A stretch of DNA of 25,929 bases from a virus, in the IMG/VR virus record IMGVR_UViG_3300017727_004965, positions 1 to 25,929 of that record. One strand, written 5' to 3'. The translations under genes and the position numbers were made by a program. Under the pieces are notes generated by a model. That model had not been told where the DNA came from, ran no database searches, and was given only the letters and a program-made list of their open reading frames with translations. Each line of letters starts with the position of its first letter. Position 1 is the first letter of the stretch. Positions 824 to 25,383 of this stretch are shown in pieces.

Positions 824-1278
824 TGGGTTGGTATAGTGAAATATCACGTGACATTAGTAAAATACCTGATGCTATTGCTTACTTTGAAAAAGAGTTAATT
901 GATGCTCGAGTTGAAGTAAAGTTAAAAGGCAATGTTGAACGAGCCGCGGCAGAAATGCCCGGTATCGTTGAACATAGGTTTAACCAGTTACAAGAAATTG
1001 AAGCTATACTAAACTACCTCAATATTGAGCTACGTAGATTACGTAGCTCATTCTTTAAAAAATACCTTGAGAATTATCAAAGAGCTCTATCAAGCCGTGA
1101 CGTAGAAAAATATGTTGACGGTGAAGCAGACGTAGTTGACTACGAAAAAATTATCAACGAATTTGCTCTTATGCGTAATAAATGGTTAGGTCTACTAAAA
1201 GGACTTGATCAAAAGCAATGGCAGATTACAAATGTTGTTAAACTTAGAGTAGCAGGTATGGAAGATGCTGTCTTATGA
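823..1278 (+). CDS. uvsY: UvsY-like recombination mediator
   Basis: UvsY helps UvsX load onto ssDNA coated with gp32. The call rests on position, two genes after uvsX, and on general resemblance. The protein is 151 residues (T4 UvsY is 137), largely helical and charged, with a central coiled-coil-like region (residues ~55-90, EIEAILNYLNIELRRLRSS), a VDGEADVVDYEK segment like the short link before the C-terminal helices of phage UvsYs, and a C-terminal W..LL.GL..KQWQI..VVKLR pattern seen in cyanophage UvsYs. Sequence identity to T4 is low. It overlaps the first island gene by 14 bases. An unusually strong inverted repeat lies inside the gene (1026-1050). Confidence 0.6.
   Translation: MGWYSEISRDISKIPDAIAYFEKELIDARVEVKLKGNVERAAAEMPGIVEHRFNQLQEIEAILNYLNIELRRLRSSFFKKYLENYQRALSSRDVEKYVDGEADVVDYEKIINEFALMRNKWLGLLKGLDQKQWQITNVVKLRVAGMEDAVL
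1026..1050. repeat. Perfect inverted repeat: 11-bp arms, 3-base spacer
   Basis: TGAGCTACGTA (1026-1036), GAT, then TACGTAGCTCA (1040-1050) form a perfect hairpin inside the uvsY-like gene, followed at once by TTCTTT. This resembles an intrinsic terminator or an RNA-processing hairpin more than ordinary coding sequence. It encodes an ...LRRLRSS... stretch, so the amino acid sequence is partly constrained. Confidence 0.6.
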
Positions 1279-1951
1279 TGTTAGTATCATACGTATAAAA
1301 GGCGAAGAGTTTTCTGAATCTTTAGCAAATGACTGTTTGCGAACATGCAAACAATATGGTTATCACGCTAAACTATTTGATGCATACTACGGTAAAGTTG
1401 CTGATATACAATATACACAACTAAAATTAAAACCATTTAAAGGTTTAAAAGAAGGCAAACAAACCCAAGGAGCAAAGGGTTGTTTGCTTTCTCATTTACA
1501 TCTGTGGAATAGATGTTTACAAAAGAATAAGCCTATTGTTATATTAGAACACGATGCGTTATTTGTACGTCATATTCCTGTTGAAGCATTAAAACCTAAA
1601 AAATTTGATTTAGTAAACTTTGACATTCACAGTAGAACTAAAGATGATTATACAAAATTTTGTGAATATTTTGATGACACAACAATATATAGATTGCCTG
1701 GCGGCGGCAATAAAAGGCGTTACGACCATCACAATGTAAATCATATAAAAGGATCACACGGTTATGTTATTCATCCAGAAGGTGCTAATAAGTTAGTGCG
1801 CTTCATTGAAGAATTTGGGTGGTTACCTGTAGACTTACTAATCAATCCTATGTTGTTAAATGCATATGCAACAAAAGCCGTTATAACACGTATTAATCCT
1901 AAAGCGTGGAACGAACAAAAGCGTAAGCCAATTCAAAGCTATACACGCTAA
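1265..1951 (+). CDS. Glycosyltransferase, GT25-like (LPS sugar transferase type)
   Basis: This predicted GT-A glycosyltransferase transfers a sugar from a nucleotide donor, most likely to a surface glycan. GT25 landmarks are GAKGCLLSHLHLW (residues 69-81, family pattern G..GC..SH...W), ILEHDA (93-98, at the place of the usual LEDD metal-binding motif, here with His), and the HGYVIHPEGANKLV strand-helix (family pattern .aY.is..gA.kL). The length of 228 residues is usual for the family. It opens the sugar island and overlaps uvsY by 14 bases. It is followed by a 37-base gap, the largest in this region. Acceptor and donor cannot be told from sequence. Confidence 0.75.
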   Translation: MLSYDVSIIRIKGEEFSESLANDCLRTCKQYGYHAKLFDAYYGKVADIQYTQLKLKPFKGLKEGKQTQGAKGCLLSHLHLWNRCLQKNKPIVILEHDALFVRHIPVEALKPKKFDLVNFDIHSRTKDDYTKFCEYFDDTTIYRLPGGGNKRRYDHHNVNHIKGSHGYVIHPEGANKLVRFIEEFGWLPVDLLINPMLLNAYATKAVITRINPKAWNEQKRKPIQSYTR

Positions 1952-1988: not shown

Positions 1989-2750
1989 ATGAAAGTTGGA
2001 ATAATCGGATATGGTTGGGTTGGTAAAGCAACTGAAAAACTTTTTCCTGATGCACAAATATACGATAAATTTATACCTAAATATAACAAACCTTTAGAGG
2101 ACGATATAGATATAGCATTTCTTGCTGTGCCTACACCGTGGGATGGAGAACGTCTCAATTGTGATGCAGTTGAAGATGCAATAGCACATTGTAAATGTGA
2201 ATTTATTGTTATTAGAAGTGCAACATATCCAGGCTTTGCAGATGCAATGGCTAAAAAATGGCGCAAAAGAATAGTTGTTCAACCTGAATATTTAGGTGAA
2301 ACTCCGGCACACCCTATGCTTGCTATGAAGGGTAGACAGTTTATGATTATAGGCGGAGATCCTATTGACAGACGCAAAGTGATAGATTGTTATACAAGTG
2401 TGTACAATGCAAATATTACTATTAGACAGACAACTGCTAAAGAAGCTGAGTTTATAAAACTTACTGAAAACAGAGCTATATTTTGGAAAGTCCTACAGTG
2501 TCAAGAACTATATGATGCATGTGAAGCGGCTGGTATGGATTACTATACTATACGTGATGCTGTATACGCTGACGACCCAAGAATGAACTTATGGTTTAGT
2601 TTTGTGTATCCTGATAATAGAGGTGCCAACAGTAAATGTATTCCTAAAGATGTCCACGCATGGTGCCACTTCTGTGAAAGCGTAGGACTTGATCCTGTAG
2701 CAACTAAGCACCTTTTAGAATATAACAAGCAATTAATTAAGGACAATTAG
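1989..2750 (+). CDS. Short UDP-glucose/GDP-mannose dehydrogenase family protein
   Basis: This is an NAD-dependent nucleotide-sugar 6-dehydrogenase that would oxidise a UDP- or GDP-hexose to the uronic acid. Seen: Rossmann GYGWVG (7-12), VPTP (47-50), QPEYLGE with the active-site Glu (E100), KLTENRA (Lys157/Asn161 of the central helix) and the catalytic-cysteine motif SKCIPKD (Cys217, family pattern G..CFPKD). At 253 residues against 390-450 in bacteria, it lacks the C-terminal domain that normally completes the UDP-binding site, yet the catalytic residues remain. A good ribosome binding site (AAGGA, ~1978-1982) precedes the ATG. The next three genes complete a nucleotide-sugar pathway. The substrate is unknown. 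Confidence 0.85.
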   Translation: MKVGIIGYGWVGKATEKLFPDAQIYDKFIPKYNKPLEDDIDIAFLAVPTPWDGERLNCDAVEDAIAHCKCEFIVIRSATYPGFADAMAKKWRKRIVVQPEYLGETPAHPMLAMKGRQFMIIGGDPIDRRKVIDCYTSVYNANITIRQTTAKEAEFIKLTENRAIFWKVLQCQELYDACEAAGMDYYTIRDAVYADDPRMNLWFSFVYPDNRGANSKCIPKDVHAWCHFCESVGLDPVATKHLLEYNKQLIKDN

Positions 2751-3352
2751 TGAACGATTTAAAAGACTTTACCAACTTCAATGGTAATTACATACACCCT
2801 ACTGCTATTATAAATTGGGATAGAGTAAGCATGGGAACAGGCAACATCATTTATCCATATGCATGTATTGGAACTGATGCACAACATCCTCGTGAAGATT
2901 CTAACGGTGTAATAGAAATAGGCGATAACAATATTTTTAGAGAATATGTTACAGTGCATTTACCAACAGCACATTCAAAATTAACAAAAATAGGCAGTGA
3001 TTGTTATCTAATGGTGTTAGCACACGTTGCACATGATTGTATTGTTGAAGACAATGTGCGTATTAGTAACAACACAGTTTTATCTGGACATGTGCATGTA
3101 ATGAATCATGCAGTACTTGGACTTAACTGTAACATACACCAATTCCAAGTTATAGGATCATATGCAATGTTAGGCATGGGTACAGTGGTCGGTGCGAATA
3201 ATAAAATAGTACCTGGTAAAGTTTACATCGGTTCTAATGCAAAAGGCTTAAAAGAAAACACAATTGGGTTAGAACGTAATAATGTTACACCAGAAATATT
3301 AGAATCAGAAATTGCACGTTTTGAAAAATTATATGAGGACATGCATACATGA
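2750..3352 (+). CDS. LpxA-like left-handed beta-helix acyltransferase
   Basis: The protein has hexapeptide-repeat (left-handed beta-helix) sequence close to LpxA, the UDP-GlcNAc O/N-acyltransferase that begins lipid A synthesis. Matches to the E. coli LpxA pattern include EIGDNNIFREYVTVH (56-70), LTKIGSD (78-84), LAHVAHDC (90-97) with His92/His95 aligning with catalytic-site His122/His125, SGHV (112-115) and HQF..IG (130-136). It is 200 residues against 262 and lacks most of the C-terminal helical domain. The GTG start is supported by AAGGA at 2739-2743 and one-base overlap with the previous stop. The GnnA/GnnB-like genes that follow suggest N-acylation of a 3-amino sugar (inference). A plain sugar N-acetyltransferase is the alternative. 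Confidence 0.85.
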   Translation: MNDLKDFTNFNGNYIHPTAIINWDRVSMGTGNIIYPYACIGTDAQHPREDSNGVIEIGDNNIFREYVTVHLPTAHSKLTKIGSDCYLMVLAHVAHDCIVEDNVRISNNTVLSGHVHVMNHAVLGLNCNIHQFQVIGSYAMLGMGTVVGANNKIVPGKVYIGSNAKGLKENTIGLERNNVTPEILESEIARFEKLYEDMHT

Positions 3353-4254
3353 TACTTTTAGTAGGTTACGGATACTGGGGCAAAAATTTAGCACGTAACT
3401 TTACAAAAGAGTTAAGTGTTGTATGTGACAAAGACATTGACTTATTGCACACAGCAAAACAAGTATATCCTCGTATCGCAATATACAACGATTACGATTT
3501 AGCACTTCAACATCCAGGCATAAAAGCTGTTCTTATAGCAACAAAGACCAACGAACATTTACAAATGGCAAGTAAGGCAATTCAACACGGTTATGATGTT
3601 TGGATTGAAAAGCCTGTGTGTGCAACTTTAGACGAAGTAGATCAGCTTATAAAAGTAAGTGAAGAACACAATAAATTAGTATTTGTAGATCATACCTTTT
3701 GCTATCATCCAGCAGTTGAAAAAATGAAAAGTATTGACATTGGTCAACCTCTTTATTACGATAGCACAAGAATTAGTTTAGGTTTATTTCAACCAGATGT
3801 AGATGTATTACTTGATCTTGCAATTCACGATGTGAGTATTATAAATTATTTGTATCCTGATATAAAACTTGCGGATCGTAAAATTATAAAAAATGCACAT
3901 ATTAATAAAACAGCAAATCAGGCAGTAGTGCTATTGAAATACAACAATGGATTTACAGCAAACATAAATGTTAACTGGGTAAGTCCTGTAAAGAAAAGGC
4001 AAATCATACTTGCAGGTAGTACAGCAAGTGTTGTTTACGATGACATAGACAACGATAAAATTAAAGTATATGAAACTGGCGAAATAGCTGATGACTTTAA
4101 TGCCAACAGTTTAGGTGATATGTATTCACCTAAAGTAGGTACACAAGAAGCATTATATATGGGACGAACACATTTTTTAGATTGTATTAAAACAAGACAA
4201 CAACCGCACACAAATATATACAAAGCAAAACAGATCATGGAGTGGCTATTATGA
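3349..4254 (+). CDS. Gfo/Idh/MocA oxidoreductase, GnnA/WlbA-like
   Basis: NAD(P)-dependent sugar dehydrogenase. Seen: Rossmann GYGYWGKN (6-13), the family's EKP motif (87-89) that carries the active-site lysine, and DLAIHD (156-161) for the conserved DxxxH. It has 301 residues, within the family range. GYGYWG is typical of the subgroup that oxidises the C3 hydroxyl of UDP-GlcNAc or its uronic acid (GnnA, WlbA/WbpB), giving the 3-keto sugar used by a DegT aminotransferase. It is coupled to both neighbours by ATGA overlaps, and the next gene is such an aminotransferase. The 3-oxidation role is inference from context. Confidence 0.85.
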   Translation: MILLVGYGYWGKNLARNFTKELSVVCDKDIDLLHTAKQVYPRIAIYNDYDLALQHPGIKAVLIATKTNEHLQMASKAIQHGYDVWIEKPVCATLDEVDQLIKVSEEHNKLVFVDHTFCYHPAVEKMKSIDIGQPLYYDSTRISLGLFQPDVDVLLDLAIHDVSIINYLYPDIKLADRKIIKNAHINKTANQAVVLLKYNNGFTANINVNWVSPVKKRQIILAGSTASVVYDDIDNDKIKVYETGEIADDFNANSLGDMYSPKVGTQEALYMGRTHFLDCIKTRQQPHTNIYKAKQIMEWLL

Positions 4255-5285
4255 TCCCTTTTTACAATTTTAAGGAAATACACAGACCAAAAGTAGAGCA
4301 GGAACTTATAGAATCTGCAATGGATGTAATTGTAAGTGGCAACTACGTATTTGGCACATATAAGTTTGAAGAAGACTTTGCAGATTATGTAGGCAGTAAA
4401 TATTGTGTTGCAGTATCATCTGGTACATCTGCACTACACTTAGGACTAAAGTCATTAGGTATTGGACCAGGTGATGAAGTCATTACAGTAAGCCATACAT
4501 TCAAAGCAACTATTGCCGCAATAAAATACTTAGGTGCAACACCTGTATATGTAGATATTAATCCACATACTTTTTGTATGGATGCTACTAAAATACAAAA
4601 GGCAATTACACCTAATACAAAATGTATATTACCTGTACACTTGTACGGTAACATGGCTAATATGGAAGGTATTTGTGCAATAGCAGAAGCACACAACATA
4701 CCTATTATTGAAGATTGCAGTCAAGCACACGGTAGCACATTTAAGGAAAAACACGCAGGAACATTTGGTAAGTTAGGAACTTTTAGTTTTTATCCTGGCA
4801 AAGGTTTAGGAGCATTAGGCGATGCAGGTTGCATTGTTACAGACGACCCTGACATTTATGAATACGCTTGCGAAGCACGTAGTTGGCACGAAACCGAAGT
4901 AGGTTTCAATTATAGAATGTCAAACATACAAGCAGAATTTTTACGTGTAAAATTAAAACACTTTGACGAAGTATTAGAATCAAAGCGTGAAATTGCAAGT
5001 TTTTATAATAAGTTTTTTAACGATGTTTACACAAAGAATGTACAGCACAGCTATCACATATATCCTGTATTAAGTAATGATAGAGATAGTTTAATTGCTA
5101 AGTGTAAAGGCAAAGTTGAATTAAAAATGCACTATCCTAAACCGGTACATAAAACACCAGGACATATTGCACCTTATCATTTACCTGTTACAGAAATGAT
5201 ATCATCTTCGCAAGTAAGTTTACCTATCTATCCAGGAGTAGAATGGCAAGAGGTTATTAACACAGTAATGGAACATAATACATGA
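4251..5285 (+). CDS. DegT/DnrJ/EryC1 aminotransferase, GnnB/WbpE-like
   Basis: PLP-dependent sugar aminotransferase that converts a keto-sugar nucleotide to the amino sugar. Seen: SGTSAL (57-62, phosphate-binding turn), IEDCSQAHG (153-161, Asp155 binds the PLP ring nitrogen), SFYPGKGLGALGDAG (Lys184 as Schiff-base lysine) and NYRMSNIQAE. I chose the ATG at 4251, which overlaps the preceding stop as ATGA; an in-frame ATG at 4242 would add three residues. The length of 344 residues is slightly short for the family (~360-390). Placed after a Gfo/Idh gene, it likely aminates C3 of a UDP-GlcNAc-type sugar (inference). Confidence 0.9.
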   Translation: MIPFYNFKEIHRPKVEQELIESAMDVIVSGNYVFGTYKFEEDFADYVGSKYCVAVSSGTSALHLGLKSLGIGPGDEVITVSHTFKATIAAIKYLGATPVYVDINPHTFCMDATKIQKAITPNTKCILPVHLYGNMANMEGICAIAEAHNIPIIEDCSQAHGSTFKEKHAGTFGKLGTFSFYPGKGLGALGDAGCIVTDDPDIYEYACEARSWHETEVGFNYRMSNIQAEFLRVKLKHFDEVLESKREIASFYNKFFNDVYTKNVQHSYHIYPVLSNDRDSLIAKCKGKVELKMHYPKPVHKTPGHIAPYHLPVTEMISSSQVSLPIYPGVEWQEVINTVMEHNT

Positions 5286-6061
5286 TAACATTGGCAGCCT
5301 TTTATAAGGATCTCAAAGAAACTAAATTATCTTCTAAACTTACAAAACGTATAAAAAATAATAAAATAGATTACCGCAGTTCGTTAGATATGATGCAACA
5401 AACATTGTTGAAGACAAATCCTACAGCAACATTTACAGTAAAAACGTGTAATGAAACACAATTAAATTATAATAATATTTTCAGAACTAATTGTACACGA
5501 ATAAATTTAATAGAATCATTTGTAAGATGCGATTTAAATTTTGTACGGCAACACTATGGTAAAACTATTATGGTAGGCAGTGATCATTTAGTATGTGGCG
5601 ATCTTAGAAAGTTTTTTGAAGAAGATTATGACTTTGCAACTTGTATACAAAATAATACATTTGATAGCACACACAGAACTAATGTAATGAACTTTATGTT
5701 TATAAATGATAAAGATGCTAAGTCACACAAAAGACTTGAAAAGTTTTTTTTACGTAGATATGAAATATTTAAAACGTTTGAAGAACAAGATAGACTATGG
5801 TGGGGAGATCAAAAAAGTCTAAGTGTAGCATTAAACAGTGAAGGACACATACAAAATTTTTATGATTCAAATGGCAAAGACAATATGTTTGAACTCAACG
5901 GACTACGAATAAAATTATTCAGATACCCAAACTCATATATTACAAGACCAAATAGAGAAGGTACTGCTAACATAGATGAAAGTATCATAGTTGACTTTGC
6001 AGGTGATCAAGCAAAAAAATATGTAAACGGAATATTTAATGGTATTATGGAAAGAACATAA
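5282..6061 (+). CDS. Predicted GT-A-fold glycosyltransferase
   Basis: Weak but consistent signs of a nucleotide-sugar glycosyltransferase: GKTIMVGSDHLVCGDL (93-108) sits where GT-A enzymes carry the DxD metal motif, with S-D-H in its place; then a short-strand MNFMFIN segment, WWGDQKSLS (the DQ.. motif common in GT8-like enzymes), and a C-terminal IIVDFAGDQAKKY resembling the H/F-x-G-..-K donor-binding end. It has 259 residues. Translationally coupled to the aminotransferase (ATGA) and to the next gene (TAATG). Family assignment is uncertain. Confidence 0.55.
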   Translation: MITLAAFYKDLKETKLSSKLTKRIKNNKIDYRSSLDMMQQTLLKTNPTATFTVKTCNETQLNYNNIFRTNCTRINLIESFVRCDLNFVRQHYGKTIMVGSDHLVCGDLRKFFEEDYDFATCIQNNTFDSTHRTNVMNFMFINDKDAKSHKRLEKFFLRRYEIFKTFEEQDRLWWGDQKSLSVALNSEGHIQNFYDSNGKDNMFELNGLRIKLFRYPNSYITRPNREGTANIDESIIVDFAGDQAKKYVNGIFNGIMERT

Positions 6062-6657
6062 TGCCATACATAACTATACATCATAAGAAATTATTTAGAA
6101 TGTTTCGCGATAAAAACATTGCCGTTGTTGGCAACGCTATTTCTCTTTATGACAAAACTTATGGTGAAGTTATAGACTCAAATGATATTGTTGTTAGATT
6201 TAATTTAGGATTAGAACACAATAGCAAAGCTACACACGGATCCAAAACTGATTGGTTAATTTATAATAACGATGTATGGGCACGTTCTGTAAACTTATTT
6301 GATAGTAAACAACATTTCAATTGGATGCAAATTTATTACATGCATGATAGTTCTCCTGTAAGTCATAATGTATACACTATACCGGAGTTTGTACAAGAAA
6401 GTTTATTTACGAAAGGTAACTTTACAAGGTCTAATAAGCCTTCTATAGGACTGTCATTTGTACATTTCCTTACATATGTAAATGCCAAACAAGTAAATAT
6501 TTTTGGTTTTGATCACAAACAATCCCTTACATTTTATAATACAAATAGAAAGCGTAAAAAAGATCTGCGTGGAAAAGGGCATGACTGGCTAAAGGAGCAA
6601 ACTTTTTTAACAGACACTATACTCAAGACGCACAGTAATTTCAACATTCACCGATAA
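6061..6657 (+). CDS. Sialyltransferase-like (GT29) glycosyltransferase
   Basis: All main GT29 sialylmotifs can be read. Motif L: IAVVGNAISLYDKTYG..IDSNDIVVRFN (residues 20-48; family pattern AVVGNsg.l....G..ID.hD.V.R.N), followed by THGSKTD. Motif S: NKPSIGLSFVHFL...VNIFGFD (125-151; pattern PS.G.......v.lyGF). A short FYN (158-160) lies at the place of motif III. Motif VS: HDWLKE (174-179; H-x4-E). The family uses CMP-activated donors (CMP-sialic acid, and by proposal CMP-Kdo in plants). KdsA and KdsB later in the window would provide CMP-Kdo, so this may be a Kdo or nonulosonate transferase (inference). At 198 residues it is compact and has no signal or membrane anchor. Confidence 0.7.
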   Translation: MPYITIHHKKLFRMFRDKNIAVVGNAISLYDKTYGEVIDSNDIVVRFNLGLEHNSKATHGSKTDWLIYNNDVWARSVNLFDSKQHFNWMQIYYMHDSSPVSHNVYTIPEFVQESLFTKGNFTRSNKPSIGLSFVHFLTYVNAKQVNIFGFDHKQSLTFYNTNRKRKKDLRGKGHDWLKEQTFLTDTILKTHSNFNIHR

Positions 6658-7388: not shown

Positions 7389-8026
7389 TGGGTTACAAGA
7401 CACCATATCTAAGATGGATGAATGAACATATCGGTCAAGTATACGATTCAGTAGATGGATTAAAAATGTTAGAACTTGGTAATCAAGTAATTCGTCCGGA
7501 TAAACAAATACGTGAAACTACAGGAAAATTATATTTTACAAATTTAGGATACGAACACACATCAGTTGACTTAAATGGATTAGACGGAGCTCTAATTAAA
7601 GACTTGTCAAAACTCGAAGACTTTGCAGAATACAAAGAACACTTTGACGTAATTACAAATGCCGGAACAATAGAACATGTAGAACCTTTTGAAAAACAAC
7701 ATACTGCTTTTTTAAATGTGCATAATAGTTTGAAGGTTGGAGGTGTTGCAATACATATTGGTCCAGATATTGAATTTACAAAACGAGGACACTGTCAATA
7801 TTACTACGATTTGTCCTTTTGGCACAACATTACAGAGAATTCAGATTACGAGTTTTTAGGAACTACAGAGATATGTAATTGGCGTTTATATGCTGTCAAG
7901 AAGATAGGCAATGGCTTTATAGATGCAGATAATTTGCATTCTAAGATCCATGTATTACCAGGACCTGTAGGCGGCATGTATATAGATGGCGACCATAAAA
8001 AAGATAAAAATAGGCTTAAACAATAA
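7388..8026 (+). CDS. SAM-dependent methyltransferase (second, divergent)
   Basis: Seen: an altered motif I (MLELGNQ, 27-33), HTSVDLNGLDG with the acidic strand-2 residue, FDVITNAGTIEHVE at the motif-II position and SLKVGGVAIHIGP. These are class I methyltransferase landmarks, although the first glycine loop is degenerate. The 212-residue protein ends with a charged tail. It is not a duplicate of the preceding methyltransferase. It probably modifies a sugar or polysaccharide (inference). Coupled by TAATG to the amidotransferase gene. Confidence 0.7.
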   Translation: MGYKTPYLRWMNEHIGQVYDSVDGLKMLELGNQVIRPDKQIRETTGKLYFTNLGYEHTSVDLNGLDGALIKDLSKLEDFAEYKEHFDVITNAGTIEHVEPFEKQHTAFLNVHNSLKVGGVAIHIGPDIEFTKRGHCQYYYDLSFWHNITENSDYEFLGTTEICNWRLYAVKKIGNGFIDADNLHSKIHVLPGPVGGMYIDGDHKKDKNRLKQ

Positions 8027-9357
8027 TGTGCGGATTTGCGGCAACTAATCATAGCGACCCTGTAGCATCTAACAAATACTGTCAGATGCGAGGTCCTGAC
8101 ATGACCACTGTAGAAAAGATTGAAGGTATATGGTATCTTCACAACCTACTACACATAACTGGAGAAGTAACTCCTCAGCCAATTGAAAGCAATAATACTG
8201 TTGCAGTGTTTAATGGTGAAATATACAATTACACAGACTTTGGATCATACAATAGTGACGGTGAATGTATTGTAGACTTATATAATAAACAAGGCGAAAC
8301 ATTTGTAAGATCATTAGATGGCGAGTTTGCTTTATTTTTAGTAGACAACAGTCGGCGCAAACTTATTATTAGCACAGATACTTTTGCTTGTAAACCTCTT
8401 TGGTATGAATTTAAAGGAGGTAAATTTTGTGTTGCAAGTTATAAGAGTCAACTTGAAGGTTTAGGATTTACTAACGGTAAAAAATTGTTTGCAAACAAAA
8501 CACAAGTTTATAATTTAGACACACTTGAATTAGTCCGCGAATATGATAATTTTAAATTTGATATAAGACAGAAAAATGATAGCTTTGATAGATGGTGTGA
8601 TGCGTTTAGTGCAAGTATAAAAAAGCGTACACAAAATACTACACACGGAATGTTCTTAGGACTTAGTAGCGGATTTGACAGTGGTGCTATTGCTTGCGAA
8701 TTAAACAAGCAAGGAGTTGTAGCTACGGGCTACAGTATTGTTAATAATGAAAATCCAGACATAATGAAAGCACGTTTTGATATACTGCCAAGCACAGAAA
8801 GCATAACATTAAGTGTTGAAGAATTTCAAAAATGGAAAAGTGAATTAAGACACAACTGTGAAAACTTTGTATACAACGATGGCCATAGAAATTATGATAT
8901 AAAAGGCGATCAAGCATCTATGGGACTCAGTGCAATATGTAGTAGAGCAAATGCAAACAAGCAAAGAATATATTTTAGTGGACAAGGCGCTGATGAAATA
9001 ATCAGCGACTACGGATTTAATGGCAAGCGTATTTTTAAACACAGTGAGTTTGGTGGAAAGTTTCCAGACACACTTGAAGGGTTTTGGCCATGGCATAGTT
9101 TCTGGGACGGTACACAAATACAGTATCTAAACAAAGAAGAATATGTTGCTGGACACTTTGGCATAGAAACACGTTACCCATTTTTAGACAAACAATTAGT
9201 GCAAGAATTTTTATGGCTTAAACCAGAACTTAAAAATAGCAAATATAAAAGTTGCCTTGCTGAATATCTTACACGCAATAATTTTCCTTTTGAAGATAAA
9301 GAAAAGCGTGGCTTTAATGTAGTAGCAAAAGGAAAAAAGAAGAAGAGTGTACAATGA
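8026..9357 (+). CDS. AsnB-like glutamine-dependent amidotransferase
   Basis: Class II glutamine amidotransferase fused to an ATP-pyrophosphatase synthetase domain, as in asparagine synthetase B. Seen: N-terminal nucleophile Cys2 (MCGF), RGPD (22-25), VFNGEIYNY (61-69), the PP-loop LSSGFDS (213-219; family SGGxDS), SGQGADEI and IETRYPFLD. It has 443 residues against ~550 in E. coli AsnB. Homologues in O-antigen clusters (WbpS type) amidate uronic acids, which would suit the nucleotide-sugar dehydrogenase upstream; plain asparagine synthesis is the alternative. Both active sites look intact. Confidence 0.85.
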   Translation: MCGFAATNHSDPVASNKYCQMRGPDMTTVEKIEGIWYLHNLLHITGEVTPQPIESNNTVAVFNGEIYNYTDFGSYNSDGECIVDLYNKQGETFVRSLDGEFALFLVDNSRRKLIISTDTFACKPLWYEFKGGKFCVASYKSQLEGLGFTNGKKLFANKTQVYNLDTLELVREYDNFKFDIRQKNDSFDRWCDAFSASIKKRTQNTTHGMFLGLSSGFDSGAIACELNKQGVVATGYSIVNNENPDIMKARFDILPSTESITLSVEEFQKWKSELRHNCENFVYNDGHRNYDIKGDQASMGLSAICSRANANKQRIYFSGQGADEIISDYGFNGKRIFKHSEFGGKFPDTLEGFWPWHSFWDGTQIQYLNKEEYVAGHFGIETRYPFLDKQLVQEFLWLKPELKNSKYKSCLAEYLTRNNFPFEDKEKRGFNVVAKGKKKKSVQ

Positions 9358-10901: not shown

Positions 10902-11675
10902 ATGAAAGTAGTGTTGGTTACAGGCGGATTCGATCCTTTACACAGTGGGCATATTGCTTACTTTAATGAGGCCAAAAAACTTGGCGATAAACTTGTTGTA
11001 GGCGTTAATAGTGATGCTTGGTTAGCTCGTAAAAAAGGAAAACCATTTATGCCTTTTGAAGAACGCATTGCAATTATAGGTGCATTAGATGTTGTAGACG
11101 ATGTAACATTTGTAATGAACGACGATAAATTTGACGATGCTGGTGGAGCAATTTTCCATATGTTAAGTACAAACAGCCGCGATATAGAAATTATATTTGC
11201 CAACGGTGGCGATCGTAAAGAAGGTAATGTACCAGAAGAAAAAACATTCGGTGACCATCCAAATGTAAAATTTGTATACGGTGTAGGCGGAAACAATAAA
11301 AAGAATAGTAGTAGTTGGATATTACGAGAATGGAGTCATCCTACAACAAAACGTGCATGGGGCGCATATACAGTTTTAGATCAAGGTGAAGGATGGCTTA
11401 CTAAACAACTTGCATTTAGTGTTGGTAAAGCATTAAGTGACCAAAGACATTTTAAACGTTCTGAGCATTGGCATGTAGTAGAAGGTTCAATAAGAATGGA
11501 TCTTGAATATGCTAATGGCGGCAAAGCGATGATTACTGTTGGAGCTGGACAAAGTTTTGATATTCCTGTAGGTACATGGCACAAAGCAACTAATGTAGGT
11601 GACAATGTTGCGAAAGTAATAGAAGTTTGGTTAGGTGAAGAACTGACTGAAGAAGATATAGAAAGAAGAGATTGA
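10902..11675 (+). CDS. Cytidylyltransferase-like domain fused to a mannose-6-P isomerase-type cupin
   Basis: Two domains. Residues 1-~140 are a small nucleotidyltransferase of the TagD/HldE-C type: GGFDPLHSGH (8-17, the HxGH site) and a late NSSSW motif near 135-139. Residues ~150-257 are a cupin of the kind at the C-terminus of type II phosphomannose isomerase/ManC: WGAYTVL, QRHFKRSEHW (Q181, H183, E188, H189), IPVGTWH (H227), VIEVWLGE and EEDIERRD. Such a fusion could isomerise and activate a sugar or polyol phosphate, but the substrate is unknown. No convincing ribosome binding site precedes the ATG; only the TATAAATA box lies just upstream. Confidence 0.75.
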   Translation: MKVVLVTGGFDPLHSGHIAYFNEAKKLGDKLVVGVNSDAWLARKKGKPFMPFEERIAIIGALDVVDDVTFVMNDDKFDDAGGAIFHMLSTNSRDIEIIFANGGDRKEGNVPEEKTFGDHPNVKFVYGVGGNNKKNSSSWILREWSHPTTKRAWGAYTVLDQGEGWLTKQLAFSVGKALSDQRHFKRSEHWHVVEGSIRMDLEYANGGKAMITVGAGQSFDIPVGTWHKATNVGDNVAKVIEVWLGEELTEEDIERRD

Positions 11676-19970: not shown

Positions 19971-20624
19971 ATGTTCGGAAAACTATTAGAAGGTGTAGAT
20001 AAGACTCTTGTAAGAAATCTTGTAATACTACACACACTTGTAATTGCAGTAAGTAATTACTTAGTTACAATTCGATTTGATGTGTTCCCTGGCGCAGACT
20101 TACCGTTATTTGGATCATTTCCATTAGCGGCGGCGGCATTTACATTTCCAATCGTTGTTGTAGCAACTGACCTTACAGTACGTATGGTTGGTAAAGAAGC
20201 AGGTAGAGCTGTTGTAGCAATGGCTATTATTCCTGCTATTATTGCATCAGTGCTTGTGTTATTAGCACTTGATGATCCACATGCATACAGAGTAGGTTTT
20301 GCAAGTGGTACTGCTTATGCTATCGGTACTATGCTTGATGTATATGTATTCCAAGCAATTAGGGAACGATCAAATGCATGGTGGGCGGCACCAGCTGTAT
20401 CAACTATCGCCGCAAACATTATTGACACATATTCATTCTTTTATGTGGCGTTTGCAGGATCATTAGATGCAGAAGGCAATCTATCATGGATTGGCGCTAA
20501 CTGGCATATTGTTGCACAGAACAACACACTAACGAAAATTGTAGTAGGCTTAATTGTATTCCTACCTGCATACGGATTGTTACTACGCTACCTCAGAGGT
20601 AGAATGGCAACAAACGGTGGGTAA
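19971..20624 (+). CDS. yhhQ: YhhQ-family queuosine-precursor (preQ0/preQ1) transporter
   Basis: Integral inner-membrane protein of the VUT family. It matches E. coli YhhQ closely in pattern: LHTLVIAVSNYLV (cf. LFHLLVITSSNYLV), FTFPIVVVATDLTVRMVG (cf. FSFPFIFLATDLTVRIFG), GTMLDVYVFQAIRE, WWAAPAVSTIAANIIDTYSFFYVAF and FLPAYGLLLRYL. At 217 residues (E. coli 221) it is full length, with about six hydrophobic segments. The family imports 7-deazaguanine precursors. In a phage the imported base could feed tRNA queuosine or modification of phage DNA (inference; no DNA-transglycosylase gene is in this window). Confidence 0.9.
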   Translation: MFGKLLEGVDKTLVRNLVILHTLVIAVSNYLVTIRFDVFPGADLPLFGSFPLAAAAFTFPIVVVATDLTVRMVGKEAGRAVVAMAIIPAIIASVLVLLALDDPHAYRVGFASGTAYAIGTMLDVYVFQAIRERSNAWWAAPAVSTIAANIIDTYSFFYVAFAGSLDAEGNLSWIGANWHIVAQNNTLTKIVVGLIVFLPAYGLLLRYLRGRMATNGG

Positions 20625-21107: not shown

Positions 21108-21430
21108 GATATAGAAATTATACCATAGGTGGCAATGTAGTAAAAGAAGATAATCGTTACGTTGTAACCGACAATACAGAATTAAAAAACCTTGTGGTAA
21201 GTAGCACAAGGTTAAACCCATTTAAAAGCACATCAGGTCACAGTCATGCAGGGCAAGAGGAAGTCTATATGTTTATAGAAGGTCATGGCGAAATGGAACT
21301 TAATGATAAAACATTTGAAGTACAACCTGGCGATACAGTATTAATAGAAGATGGTGTATTCCATAGAGTACACGCATTACAAGACACGCTTTACTTTATT
21401 TGCGTATTCGACGGAGGAAGAAAACATTGA
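21104..21430 (+). CDS. Small cupin protein (second)
   Basis: 108 residues from the ATG at 21104, which overlaps the preceding stop (ATGA). A clear single-domain cupin: motif 1 GHSHAGQEEVYMFIEGHG (His-x-His, Glu, Gly) and motif 2 PGDTVLIEDGVFHRV. Directly upstream of kdsA and overlapping it. The arrangement suggests a sugar-phosphate isomerase or epimerase feeding Kdo synthesis, for instance supplying arabinose 5-phosphate, but this is inference; a metal-binding regulatory role is also possible. Confidence 0.75.
   Translation: MRYRNYTIGGNVVKEDNRYVVTDNTELKNLVVSSTRLNPFKSTSGHSHAGQEEVYMFIEGHGEMELNDKTFEVQPGDTVLIEDGVFHRVHALQDTLYFICVFDGGRKH
21413..21419 (+). promoter_or_regulatory. Shine-Dalgarno fixing the TTG start of kdsA
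   Basis: GGAGGAA lies 7 bases before the TTG at 21427 and inside the end of the upstream cupin gene. It is one of the strongest ribosome binding sites in the window and supports the non-ATG start. Confidence 0.65.
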
Positions 21431-22224
21431 GAATTATAGCAGGCCCTTGCCAACACGAAACACTTGAGCAAAGTTTAGAAATTGCTACAGAATGTAAAAG
21501 AGTATGTGACAAGTACGGCATTGATTACTACTTCAAGGCAAGTTTCGATAAAGCAAATCGCACAAGCGCAGATGGACAACGTGGGTTAGGACTTACACCC
21601 ACACTACATGCATTTGCAGATATGAAAGGCGACATTGCTAATTTAAAGATTCTAACTGATGTTCATACAGTTGAACAAGTTAGAGAACTGGGCAAAAGTC
21701 CAGTAGTTGACGTTTTACAAATACCTGCCTTTTTATGCAGACAAACAGATCTTATTAGAGAGGCATGTAGAACTGATAAAATTATTAATATAAAGAAAGG
21801 ACAGTTCCTTGCACCGTGGGACGTCAAAGGTATATTAAGTAAAACAGAAGGTGCAAAAGAAATATGGATAACAGAAAGAGGTACAAGTTTTGGATATAAT
21901 ACTTTGGTCGTTGATTACACTGGCTTGCTCTATATGCTTGATACCTATAATGTTCCTATTGTTTTTGATGTTACCCACTCGGTTCAACGCCCGGGAGGAA
22001 ATGGCAGTAGTAGCGGCGGTAATAGGGGGTATGTCCCTGGCTTGGCTCGCTCTGCATCTGCATTGGGTATAACAGATTTCTTTTTAGAAGTACATGCTGA
22101 TCCTGACAACGCTCCAAGCGACGGACCTAACATGTTACATCTAACAGACTTCGAAACAGTAGTAAGAGATATTATAGGTTACAGTTATGAAAACAGCAAT
22201 ACTAATACCAGCACGGTACGGTAG
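21427..22224 (+). CDS. kdsA: 3-deoxy-8-phosphooctulonate (Kdo-8-P) synthase
   Basis: Condenses phosphoenolpyruvate with arabinose 5-phosphate to Kdo-8-phosphate, the first committed step of Kdo synthesis. Motifs: IIAGPCQHE (3-11), FKASFDKANRTS (36-47), LQIPAFLCRQTDL, NIKKGQFLAPWD (121-132), FDVTHSVQRPGG (180-191) and EVHADPDNAPSDGPN (221-235). Cys8 with His184, Glu221 and Asp232 occupies the metal site of the metal-dependent class (E. coli KdsA has Asn instead of Cys). 265 residues, near full length. The TTG start is preferred over another TTG at 21400 because of the GGAGG site. Overlaps kdsB by 38 bases. Confidence 0.95.
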   Translation: MRIIAGPCQHETLEQSLEIATECKRVCDKYGIDYYFKASFDKANRTSADGQRGLGLTPTLHAFADMKGDIANLKILTDVHTVEQVRELGKSPVVDVLQIPAFLCRQTDLIREACRTDKIINIKKGQFLAPWDVKGILSKTEGAKEIWITERGTSFGYNTLVVDYTGLLYMLDTYNVPIVFDVTHSVQRPGGNGSSSGGNRGYVPGLARSASALGITDFFLEVHADPDNAPSDGPNMLHLTDFETVVRDIIGYSYENSNTNTSTVR

Positions 22225-22867
22225 CACACGCTTTGAAGGGAAGCCACTATGTATGTTAGATGGTGTCCCAATGATAAAACGTGTGTATGACGCTTGTATT
22301 GCGTCTAAGATACCAACATATGTGCTTACAGATGATCAACGCATATACAATGTGGTAGGTGGTAACTGCATCATTGATCGAGAAGAATACGACAACGGTA
22401 CTGAAAGATGTGCCGGTGCAATAAAGAACTTTAGGCAACTTGACCGTTATAACAAGTTTATAAACGTGCAAGGTGATATGCCAGATGTGACACTGCAAAT
22501 GATAGAACGTTGTGTAGAATGGTTGAAGTATCATTCTATCAGCACAGTATACACTGACATGCCTGAAGAGATGCAAAACAATCCTGACTCAGTCAAAATG
22601 GTTAGAGCAGGCGACCAAGCTCTTTGGTTTGGTAGAGGAATGACTGGCTACGGAGATTGGCACTTAGGTATATACGGATATAAACGAGATGCATTGGAAT
22701 TATATCCAGATATGCTTGTAGAAAAAGAAGAACAGGTTGAAAAATTAGAACAGTTACGTTGGTTAAAAAACGGTTGGCAAATCGGCTGTTCGAGTGTATA
22801 CTTTAAAGGTACAGAGATAAATTCACCAGAGGACGTAGACATATGGCACAAGACAAACTGTCGTTAG
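22187..22867 (+). CDS. kdsB: CMP-Kdo synthetase (3-deoxy-manno-octulosonate cytidylyltransferase)
   Basis: Activates Kdo with CTP to CMP-Kdo for glycosyl transfer. Seen: ILIPARYGSTRFEGKPL (5-21, nucleotide loop), DNGTERCAGA, INVQGDMP (the metal-binding Asp of the QGD motif), LGIYGYKRDAL and the C-terminal LEQLRWLKNGWQI...INSPEDVD, all in family order. 226 residues against 248 in E. coli. A related CMP-sugar synthetase cannot be excluded, but linkage to kdsA favours Kdo. The phosphatase KdsC, needed between the two steps, is not in this window. Confidence 0.92.
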   Translation: MKTAILIPARYGSTRFEGKPLCMLDGVPMIKRVYDACIASKIPTYVLTDDQRIYNVVGGNCIIDREEYDNGTERCAGAIKNFRQLDRYNKFINVQGDMPDVTLQMIERCVEWLKYHSISTVYTDMPEEMQNNPDSVKMVRAGDQALWFGRGMTGYGDWHLGIYGYKRDALELYPDMLVEKEEQVEKLEQLRWLKNGWQIGCSSVYFKGTEINSPEDVDIWHKTNCR

Positions 22868-23977: not shown

Positions 23978-24333
23978 AAATATTGATATGCGGTCCAGAA
24001 GGCTCAGGAAAAACAACATTAGCTAAACCATTTGCAGAACTTATAAATGGTGTTTATGTAAACAAAGATAGTTACGAAAAAAGAGAACTACGTGGATATG
24101 TTGATGCTATTGTTGCTATGGGCAAGACTGTAGTAATAGACAAACGATGTAATACAAATGCCGCAGTTGAATACTTACAGCCTGATTACATTGTATGGAT
24201 GGATATGCAAGAAGATGTAAAAACAGAAAGACCTTATAGAGTAGACTATCATATTACTAAATGGTTTGACGACACAGCGGCACAGCTAATGCCTGTAGTA
24301 CAACGATTTATAGAAAAGAAAGGAAAATTATGA
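23974..24333 (+). CDS. Small P-loop kinase-like protein
   Basis: 119 residues. Walker A GPEGSGKTT (7-15) is intact; VNKDSYEK and VVIDKRCNTNAAVEYL follow the order of adenylylsulfate-kinase/zeta-toxin-type small-molecule kinases (acceptor aspartate then strand 3), and YIVWMDM is strand 4. It is much shorter than typical adenylylsulfate kinase (~200 residues), lacking most of the lid region. The substrate cannot be read. ATGA overlaps on both sides. Confidence 0.6.
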   Translation: MKILICGPEGSGKTTLAKPFAELINGVYVNKDSYEKRELRGYVDAIVAMGKTVVIDKRCNTNAAVEYLQPDYIVWMDMQEDVKTERPYRVDYHITKWFDDTAAQLMPVVQRFIEKKGKL

Positions 24334-24827
24334 ACTTAGTATATCACCCAGATCCATTTTTAGACAAGCAGGTTGCTATGGTTGATTTAGAAAATCCAGG
24401 ATTTGATCCAAAGGAAATTAAACAGCAAATGATTGACACCATGCTTGCAAACAATGGTATCGGACTTAGTGCTAATCAAGTAGGATTAGATGCACAAGTT
24501 TTTGTAATGGGCGATAGCGTAACTAACGCAATGATTTGTATTAATCCTACTATACTTGAATACACAAAAGAAACTGTATTGGATACAGAAGGTTGTTTAA
24601 GTTTTCCTAATGTATATGTAAAAGTACAACGTCCAAAAGAAATACTTGCAGAATTTTACAACGAAAATTTAGAAAAACAAACTGTAAAGATACAAGGTTA
24701 TAGTGCAAAATGTTATTTGCATGAATGGGATCACTTGCAAGGTGTTACATTTAAAGATCGCGTAAGCAAACTAAAATGGAACATGGCACTTAAGAAAGCA
24801 AGAAAAATAGGAAAGACATATGCCTGA
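24330..24827 (+). CDS. def: Peptide deformylase
   Basis: Removes the formyl group from the N-terminal methionine of new proteins. All three family motifs are present: GIGLSANQ (43-50; GxGxAAxQ), EGCLS (87-91, metal-binding Cys) and HEWDH (131-135, two metal-binding His and catalytic Glu). 165 residues, near the catalytic minimum, without the C-terminal extension of host enzymes. Phage-encoded deformylases are known in marine T4-like phages, where they are thought to help mature highly expressed proteins (established for the group; role here inferred). Confidence 0.95.
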   Translation: MNLVYHPDPFLDKQVAMVDLENPGFDPKEIKQQMIDTMLANNGIGLSANQVGLDAQVFVMGDSVTNAMICINPTILEYTKETVLDTEGCLSFPNVYVKVQRPKEILAEFYNENLEKQTVKIQGYSAKCYLHEWDHLQGVTFKDRVSKLKWNMALKKARKIGKTYA

Positions 24828-25383
24828 TATTGACATAGACTTTGCTGATAGAGACATAGTGCTACAAAAACTTGACCATAGAGTAGCAAGACTCAACACA
24901 GGCAAGAAACACAATACAGGTGTATATGCAACTGAGATTCCGCACAATCCTGTTAATAACTTGAGTACAATAGAACACAAGACAGCAGAAGATAGAGGAT
25001 ACTTTAAATTAGATTTTCTTAATGTAAGTATCTATAAAGACGTAAAAGACGAAGCACACTTACAAGAATTAATGGAAAGGAAACCACTATGGCAACTTCT
25101 GGAACACGAAGACTTCAGCGAAAAAGTATTTCATCTCAACGGGCACAACGCACTATTGAAGCAATTGAAGCCGTCATCGGTAGAACAATTAGCGGCAACA
25201 TTAGCAATTATACGTCCGGCAAAAAGACACTTAGCGGACAAAGATTGGAAAACAATAATGGACGAGGTGTGGACAAAGCCGACAAACGGTGAGTATTATT
25301 TTAAGAAAGCACACGCAATATCTTATGCTATGGCGTGTGTTGTACACATAAATTTATTATGTGAACAGATATCTAATCCTTAG
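24820..25383 (+). CDS. Miniature DnaE-like protein (C-family DNA polymerase fragment)
   Basis: 187 residues whose segments follow, in order, the palm and finger motifs of bacterial DNA polymerase III alpha: PDIDIDF (2-8; DnaE PDFDVDF with two catalytic Asp), RDIVLQKL, then GYFKLDFLNVS (60-70; DnaE KFDFLGL with the third catalytic Asp), LAATLAIIRPAKR (126-136; DnaE I..YRPGP) and YYFKKAHAISYAM (159-171; DnaE YGFNKSHA..Y). The PHP, thumb and OB domains are missing, and the spacing between motifs is strongly reduced. It overlaps the deformylase by 8 bases and ends by an 11-base overlap with a convergent gene. Whether it synthesises DNA is unknown. Confidence 0.65.
   Translation: MPDIDIDFADRDIVLQKLDHRVARLNTGKKHNTGVYATEIPHNPVNNLSTIEHKTAEDRGYFKLDFLNVSIYKDVKDEAHLQELMERKPLWQLLEHEDFSEKVFHLNGHNALLKQLKPSSVEQLAATLAIIRPAKRHLADKDWKTIMDEVWTKPTNGEYYFKKAHAISYAMACVVHINLLCEQISNP

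Follow-up and report, generated by a model that had tools for sequence, protein, structure and literature searches.

A conserved phage gene trio with a short LpxA-like acyltransferase, predicted to make a 3-acetamido sugar for surface polysaccharide

Introduction

The IMG/VR record IMGVR_UViG_3300017727_004965, analysed here at its full length of 25,929 nucleotides (the window), is a 25.9-kb piece of a marine T4-like phage that carries three adjacent genes for a short LpxA-like acyltransferase, a Gfo/Idh/MocA dehydrogenase (Gfo) and a DegT/DnrJ/EryC1 aminotransferase (DegT). We consider it probable (roughly 0.72) that this trio converts a uridine diphosphate N-acetylhexosamine (UDP-HexNAc) of the host to its 3-acetamido derivative for surface polysaccharide, with acetyl-coenzyme A (acetyl-CoA) as donor. 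A first-pass annotation of the same DNA had recognized the three families in this order and place, as ORFs and Pfam matches now confirm, and had deduced that a 3-amino sugar is formed by C3 oxidation and transamination and then N-acylated, a deduction that the present analysis supports. It had preferred a GnnA/GnnB/LpxA-type route feeding lipid A to a 2,3-diamino sugar destined for a surface glycan; the latter is the better reading.

In the proposed pathway, Gfo would oxidize C3 of UDP-HexNAc with nicotinamide adenine dinucleotide (NAD), DegT would transaminate the resulting 3-keto sugar, and the short LpxA-like enzyme would acetylate the 3-amino group from acetyl-CoA. The starting substrate would most likely be UDP-N-acetylglucosamine (UDP-GlcNAc), or its uronic acid UDP-GlcNAcA where a 6-dehydrogenase provides it. 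The product, for example UDP-2,3-diacetamido-2,3-dideoxy-glucose (or uronic acid), would then be used by phage or host glycosyltransferases, giving an altered surface polysaccharide.

The Trio and Its Recurrence in Phages

The three open reading frames (ORFs) follow each other on the plus strand in overlapping frames:

2750..3352, + strand: short LpxA-like left-handed beta-helix protein, 200 aa (Pfam Hexapep); predicted 3-amino-sugar N-acetyltransferase (Pcryo_0615-like)
3349..4254, + strand: Gfo/Idh/MocA dehydrogenase, 301 aa (Pfam PF01408, 1e-16); predicted UDP-HexNAc C3 dehydrogenase
4242..5285, + strand: DegT/DnrJ/EryC1 aminotransferase (Pfam PF01041, 2e-97); predicted 3-keto-sugar aminotransferase

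The DegT gene starts at GTG 4242 or, more likely, at the in-frame ATG 4251, which as a start codon would form an ATGA overlap with the Gfo stop codon. Four-base ATGA overlaps occur at the junctions 3349/3352 and 5282/5285, and sequences resembling ribosome-binding sites (AAGGA/GAGGA) lie upstream of GTG 2750 and ATG 3349; together, these features suggest one translationally coupled operon that includes a dehydrogenase gene at 1989-2750.

At least four further lineages of phages, designated L003, L004/L089, L088 (152 kb) and L097-L101 (up to 137 kb), share the order LpxA-like, Gfo, DegT, and their trio proteins are 39-61% identical to those of the window; L002 represents the window phage in a different sample. 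Since this order recurs across phage contigs, the trio is not a chance assembly. It is located downstream of UvsY in L003 and L004 and close to UvsW in L088, and when the window and L088 are compared, codons differ most often at third positions. Variant arrangements also exist, namely LpxA-like, DegT, Gfo in L148/L149 and an LpxA-like gene adjoining Gfo in L153, and the short LpxA-like gene is present on about 80 viral contigs. Among annotated phage genomes, no named phage had a Gfo at useful identity, and searches with the LpxA-like protein gave weak matches (at most 36%), several of them in records labelled as bacteria. The LpxA-like genes of L003 (3878-4480) and L004 (4097-4699) differ at 3 of 603 bases, as against 54 of 453 for the neighbouring UvsY, and divergence is also plain among the Gfo proteins; it seems that the acyltransferase gene is exchanged on its own.

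The Acyltransferase Belongs to a Short Family Outside LpxA

Judged by its sequence, the window acyltransferase lies outside LpxA, in a separate and shorter family, and the lipid A reading is not supported. Its best NCBIfam match is lpxA (1e-43), at 149 bits under a cut-off of 226, with another score of 144 against a cut-off of 231; for comparison, LpxA models score E. coli LpxA at 403, an lpx-linked protein (L030) at 328 and a SAR11 short protein at 135. In an unrooted tree, 25 short proteins (from the window, other phages, SAR11, PDB entry 8E62 and one unclassified bacterium) are split from 18 canonical LpxAs with 100/100 support and in all 200 bootstrap trees, and the window protein shares the side of 8E62 on the branch to LpxA; a Desulfovibrio LpxA row (L020) was left out of this tree for its branch of 8.7. 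The entry 8E62 is Pcryo_0615, from the 2,3-diacetamido-2,3-dideoxy-glucuronate pathway of Psychrobacter cryohalolentis, and its title describes an N-acetyltransferase required to produce a diacetamido-2,3-dideoxy sugar. Phylogeny thus places the acyltransferase with a sugar acetyltransferase and not with LpxA, a placement that counts against the lipid A proposal of the first-pass annotation.

Profile and structure comparisons rank the same protein first. A profile from five phage proteins retrieves 8E62 at 155 bits, with canonical LpxAs at 120 or less. The AlphaFold2 (AF2) model of the window protein, built from 36 sequences, has a predicted local distance difference test (pLDDT) score of 96.5 (an earlier model from five sequences, with pLDDT 57, was not used). 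Foldseek returns 8E62 on top, and the structural match gives Z 29.0 and a root-mean-square deviation (rmsd) of 1.3 Å over 181 residues, compared with Z 25.4 for E. coli LpxA. Short proteins have 22-35 residues after the N198 equivalent (30 in the window protein) vs. 64-85 in the 18 canonical LpxAs, so that half of the LpxA C-terminal domain is missing from the window acyltransferase. Retention of the catalytic-site histidines had been noted earlier in favour of LpxA; the equivalents of E. coli H122, H125, H144 and H160 are indeed all present, but they do not discriminate LpxA from the short family, because Pcryo_0615 has H125, H144 and H160 and three other trio phages have lost H122. The further argument that the acyltransferase matches LpxA rather than WbpD fails, since 8E62 is a known case of an LpxA-like N-acetyltransferase that serves 2,3-diacetamido-sugar synthesis. 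WbpD-type rows form a separate clade (100/99) with the window protein outside it, and 3mqg is matched only at E 5e-4.

The transferred group bears on two further readings. Position 173, which established studies of the E. coli and P. aeruginosa enzymes assign to the acyl-chain ruler of LpxA, is Gly in E. coli and Met in 24 of the 25 short proteins, and is Met in none of the 18 canonical LpxAs; in the LpxA rows checked from marine Gammaproteobacteria that have lpxA, DegT and Gfo genes together, it is Leu. It is unlikely, though worth naming, that in the same pathway another short acyl group (formyl, 3-hydroxybutyryl or a C4-C10 chain) is moved from CoA or acyl carrier protein (ACP) onto the 3-amino group of a surface sugar. 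The LpxA-like fold and sequence and the diversity of the family would fit such a transfer, and sugars with hydroxybutyryl on 3- or 4-amino groups occur in O-antigens, but the sole characterized family member is, by the title of 8E62, an N-acetyltransferase. It is very unlikely that the short family loads the 3-amino sugar with a longer chain taken from acyl-ACP or acyl-CoA, in which case phages would make an N-acylated amphipathic sugar nucleotide and alter lipid A or a lipid-like surface glycan during infection.

The Dehydrogenase and the Aminotransferase

The EKP and D-x3-H motifs of Gfo are intact and invariant in the alignment of phage homologues, and align to 7bvj, presumably the GnnA of A. 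ferrooxidans. Its best NCBIfam match, UDP-GlcNAc 3-dehydrogenase, reaches 120 bits under a cut-off of 450. In the Gfo tree, the phage proteins group with those of exopolysaccharide clusters, outside a GnnA clade (100/99, with no phage rows) made up of lpx-linked, spirochaete and alphaproteobacterial rows and 7bvj. The approximately unbiased (AU) test gave p 4e-5 for a grouping of phage Gfo with GnnA in a smaller set; in a larger set the value was 0.06 and significance was lost, so with more rows the phage Gfo may still be sister to GnnA. The WbpB/WlbA structures 3oa2, 3o9z, 3q2i and 3q2k were unmatched by the window Gfo (E ≤1e-3; profile 1e-8). The Gfo beside the short LpxA-like gene of L153 has 3q2i and 3q2k as its best structures (138 bits), entries that we take to be WlbA. 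WlbA structures are cited in PMC10622841. This WlbA-type neighbour ties the short family independently to 2,3-diamino sugar synthesis.

The pyridoxal phosphate (PLP) lysine motif SFYPGK of DegT is likewise intact, invariant across phage homologues and aligned to WbpE, and its PDB matches include QdtB (225 bits), WbpE (210 bits) and NtdA (177 bits). In the DegT tree the phage proteins form their own clade; the inner branches that part it from WbpE are short, and the two may still group. A grouping with GnnB, represented by lpx-linked rows only, is rejected (AU p 0.0026). The references were, for GnnA/GnnB, the Gfo and DegT genes that marine Gammaproteobacteria (L030) have inserted between lpxB and rnhB, compared with E. 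coli, and, for WbpB/WbpE, L222, whose Gfo matches PDB WbpB at 405 bits and whose DegT matches WbpE at 346 bits.

The lipid A route, in which UDP-GlcNAc3N would be made and N-acylated from hydroxyacyl-ACP to give amide-linked lipid A during infection, can draw on Gfo and DegT genes that adjoin an LpxA homologue with four active-site histidines, and on 7bvj, which strongly matches lpx-linked Gfo too (185 bits). We nevertheless hold it to be very unlikely, given an acyltransferase that is outside the LpxA clade, under the LpxA cut-off and halved in its C-terminal domain, and given that Gfo is placed outside the clade of GnnA and DegT outside that of lpx-linked GnnB. The trio also stands without lpx gene context, and a search of seven phage records, which may be incomplete, revealed neither LpxB nor acyl carrier protein. 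Among marine Gammaproteobacteria, DegT and Gfo adjoin lpxA in L030, L036, L041, L044 and L063, inside the lpx operon in L030, which suggests lipid A with 2,3-diamino-2,3-dideoxy-glucose (GlcN3N) in those uncultured bacteria.

A substrate other than UDP-GlcNAc, as in a kanosamine-like (NtdC/NtdA) route or one to some other 3-amino hexose, or a product that modifies phage DNA or the virion, also has a very low probability. Other amino sugars are made by Gfo and DegT pairs as well, NtdA is among the DegT matches besides WbpE, and DNA and virion glycosylation occurs in phages; however, the NtdA-type match is the weaker one, the LpxA-like partner indicates UDP-linked substrates, and the closest cellular Gfo and DegT genes are in polysaccharide clusters.

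Several points weigh against the proposed N-acetyltransferase pathway. The best PDB match of Gfo, 7bvj, itself belongs to the GnnA clade, and homology does not pin down the specificity of Gfo, its clade holding no characterized enzyme. The phage acyltransferase is only ~33% identical to the Psychrobacter protein within a deep family, and its acetyltransferase function is a prediction from sequence and fold. LpxA of P. aeruginosa, which uses a C10 chain, presumably also has Met at position 173, so this residue is compatible with a short acyl chain. Finally, Gfo and DegT are not nearby in 65 of the 82 phage loci with the short gene, many of which are fragments, and the short gene may therefore serve other pathways too.

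Cellular Relatives

In each of three Pelagibacteraceae genomes, a canonical LpxA of ~260 aa and the short paralogue are encoded on different contigs; that SAR11, a carrier of the related short gene, has a separate canonical LpxA further opposes the lipid A route. In the SAR11 loci L008 and L009, the short gene is accompanied by a glycosyltransferase-looking protein of ~695 aa, Gfo and DegT. In SAR11, lipopolysaccharide (LPS) core and surface genes occupy a hypervariable region and lipid A genes lie elsewhere (PMC2217521); L008 and L009 would belong to such a region. A recent SAR11 source for the whole trio was considered and rejected: the SAR11 LpxA-like proteins are the closest cellular ones (46-51%), but the likeness drops to 24-35% for Gfo and DegT, which is incompatible with a single recent origin of all three genes in SAR11.

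Of the cellular Gfo proteins found, the closest (34-38%) are encoded in polysaccharide clusters, with DegT at 40-44%. In L211 and L213, the order hexapeptide acetyltransferase, Gfo, DegT is that of the phages, and other clusters have these genes near each other. In several genomes, a GnnA-family gene and a polysaccharide-type Gfo are present as separate genes.

The Surface-Sugar Gene Block of the Window

The window contains the T4-type recombination genes for a UvsX-like recombinase and a UvsW-like helicase, and a 151-aa gene adjoining UvsX is called UvsY-like by position. The nearest relatives of the UvsW helicase are in Sinorhizobium and Agrobacterium phages with genomes >460 kb (53-57%). 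Between these recombination genes lies the surface-sugar block, which besides the trio includes KdsA, KdsB-like, GalE-like and HldE-like genes and glycosyltransferases of families GT25, GT29 and GT8. The genes flanking the trio are:

1265..1951, + strand: GT25 (LPS biosynthesis) glycosyltransferase, upstream of the operon (Pfam PF01755, 6e-21)
1989..2750, + strand: short nucleotide-sugar dehydrogenase, 253 aa (UDPG_MGDP_dh central domain, 6e-11)
5282..6061, + strand: protein of no recognized family, after the trio in trio phages (no Pfam match)
6061-6657: GT29 (sialyltransferase family) glycosyltransferase, with several relatives in L097

The protein of 1989-2750 aligns to positions 75-295 of the 413 of TIGR03026 only and has no C-terminal domain; it retains the catalytic Cys motif SKCIPKD, and its relative in L006 has 278 aa. 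It possibly performs an accessory 6-dehydrogenase step, and with its catalytic Cys motif the product of the window phage might be a uronic acid. Among the trio phages checked, only the window has such a gene; the 6-dehydrogenase family PF03721 was unmatched in three long trio phage records, and this want of a recognizable WbpA-type enzyme favours a neutral sugar or host UDP-GlcNAcA there. Homologues of the 5282-6061 protein (30-35%) follow DegT in L004, L088 and L097 and lie one gene further in L003.

Other genes of the window were noted in passing. An asparagine-synthase-like amidotransferase (8026-9357) is 65-75% identical in L003, L004 and L088, which exceeds the conservation of the trio. 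An HldE/RfaE-II-like nucleotidyltransferase fused to a mannose-6-phosphate-isomerase-type cupin (10902-11675) is kept in L003/L004/L089. KdsA, above its family cut-off, overlaps a KdsB-like gene below it (21400-22867), forming a phage 3-deoxy-D-manno-octulosonate (KDO) pair; KdsA and KdsB are likewise annotated in Synechococcus phage S-SCSM2R. A YhhQ-like queuosine precursor transporter (19971-20624; TIGR00697 above cut-off) may be a sign that the phage uses 7-deazaguanine. By eye, the ORF at 24330-24827 is peptide-deformylase-like, with an HEWDH motif, and that at 24820-25383, which starts MPDIDIDFADRD, resembles a piece of family C DNA polymerase.

Relation to Known Systems and Meaning

Pcryo_0615 resembles the phage acyltransferase in fold, short C-terminus, three histidines, GMG motif and full-length alignment; the phage protein differs by its low identity, by having H122 and by being phage-borne beside a Gfo of another clade. 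The WbpB/WbpE/WbpD system of P. aeruginosa (WlbA/WlbC/WlbB of Bordetella) has the three reaction types in common, and L153 has its WlbA-type Gfo, but the phage acetyltransferase is not WbpD/WlbB, Gfo is not WbpB-like and DegT forms a separate clade; moreover, the 6-dehydrogenase is short in the window and did not turn up in the long records of the trio phages. With GnnA/GnnB/LpxA of Acidithiobacillus and Leptospira, the trio shares superfamilies and probably also C3 oxidation and transamination, but not clades or lipid A gene context. The Pseudomonadota exopolysaccharide clusters (L211, L213) share its gene order and hold the closest cellular Gfo and DegT; their acetyltransferase, however, is WbpD/NeuD-like and ~170 aa long, whereas that of the phages is LpxA-like.

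Phage LPS genes and an LpxA-like N-acetyltransferase were already known. A study of pelagimyophages and cyanomyophages (PMC7029224) and one reporting viral lpxA/kdsB in the Challenger Deep (PMC9529941) name rfaE, UDP-glucose 6-dehydrogenase, GT8 and lpxA/D. These genes and the trio are alike in being phage-borne sugar-nucleotide and glycosyltransferase genes, presumed to change the host surface; the trio is not described in the text examined, and viral lpxA genes have been interpreted as lipid A genes (PMC9529941). As far as could be found, the new elements are a conserved phage trio and an LpxA-resembling phage family apart from lipid A enzymes. The pelagimyophage study suggests that genes of this kind alter the O-chains of the host and restrict coinfection (PMC7029224), which would be a plausible role for the trio.

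Phage genes that resemble lpxA may be taken for viral genes of lipid A synthesis. The proteins studied here belong instead to a short family of their own, linked to amino sugars of the surface, which in SAR11 is encoded by a second gene besides that for true LpxA. If the proposed pathway is correct, these phages would encode all three steps that lead to a 2,3-diacetamido sugar, and with them a means of changing host surface glycans and hence phage adsorption or superinfection.

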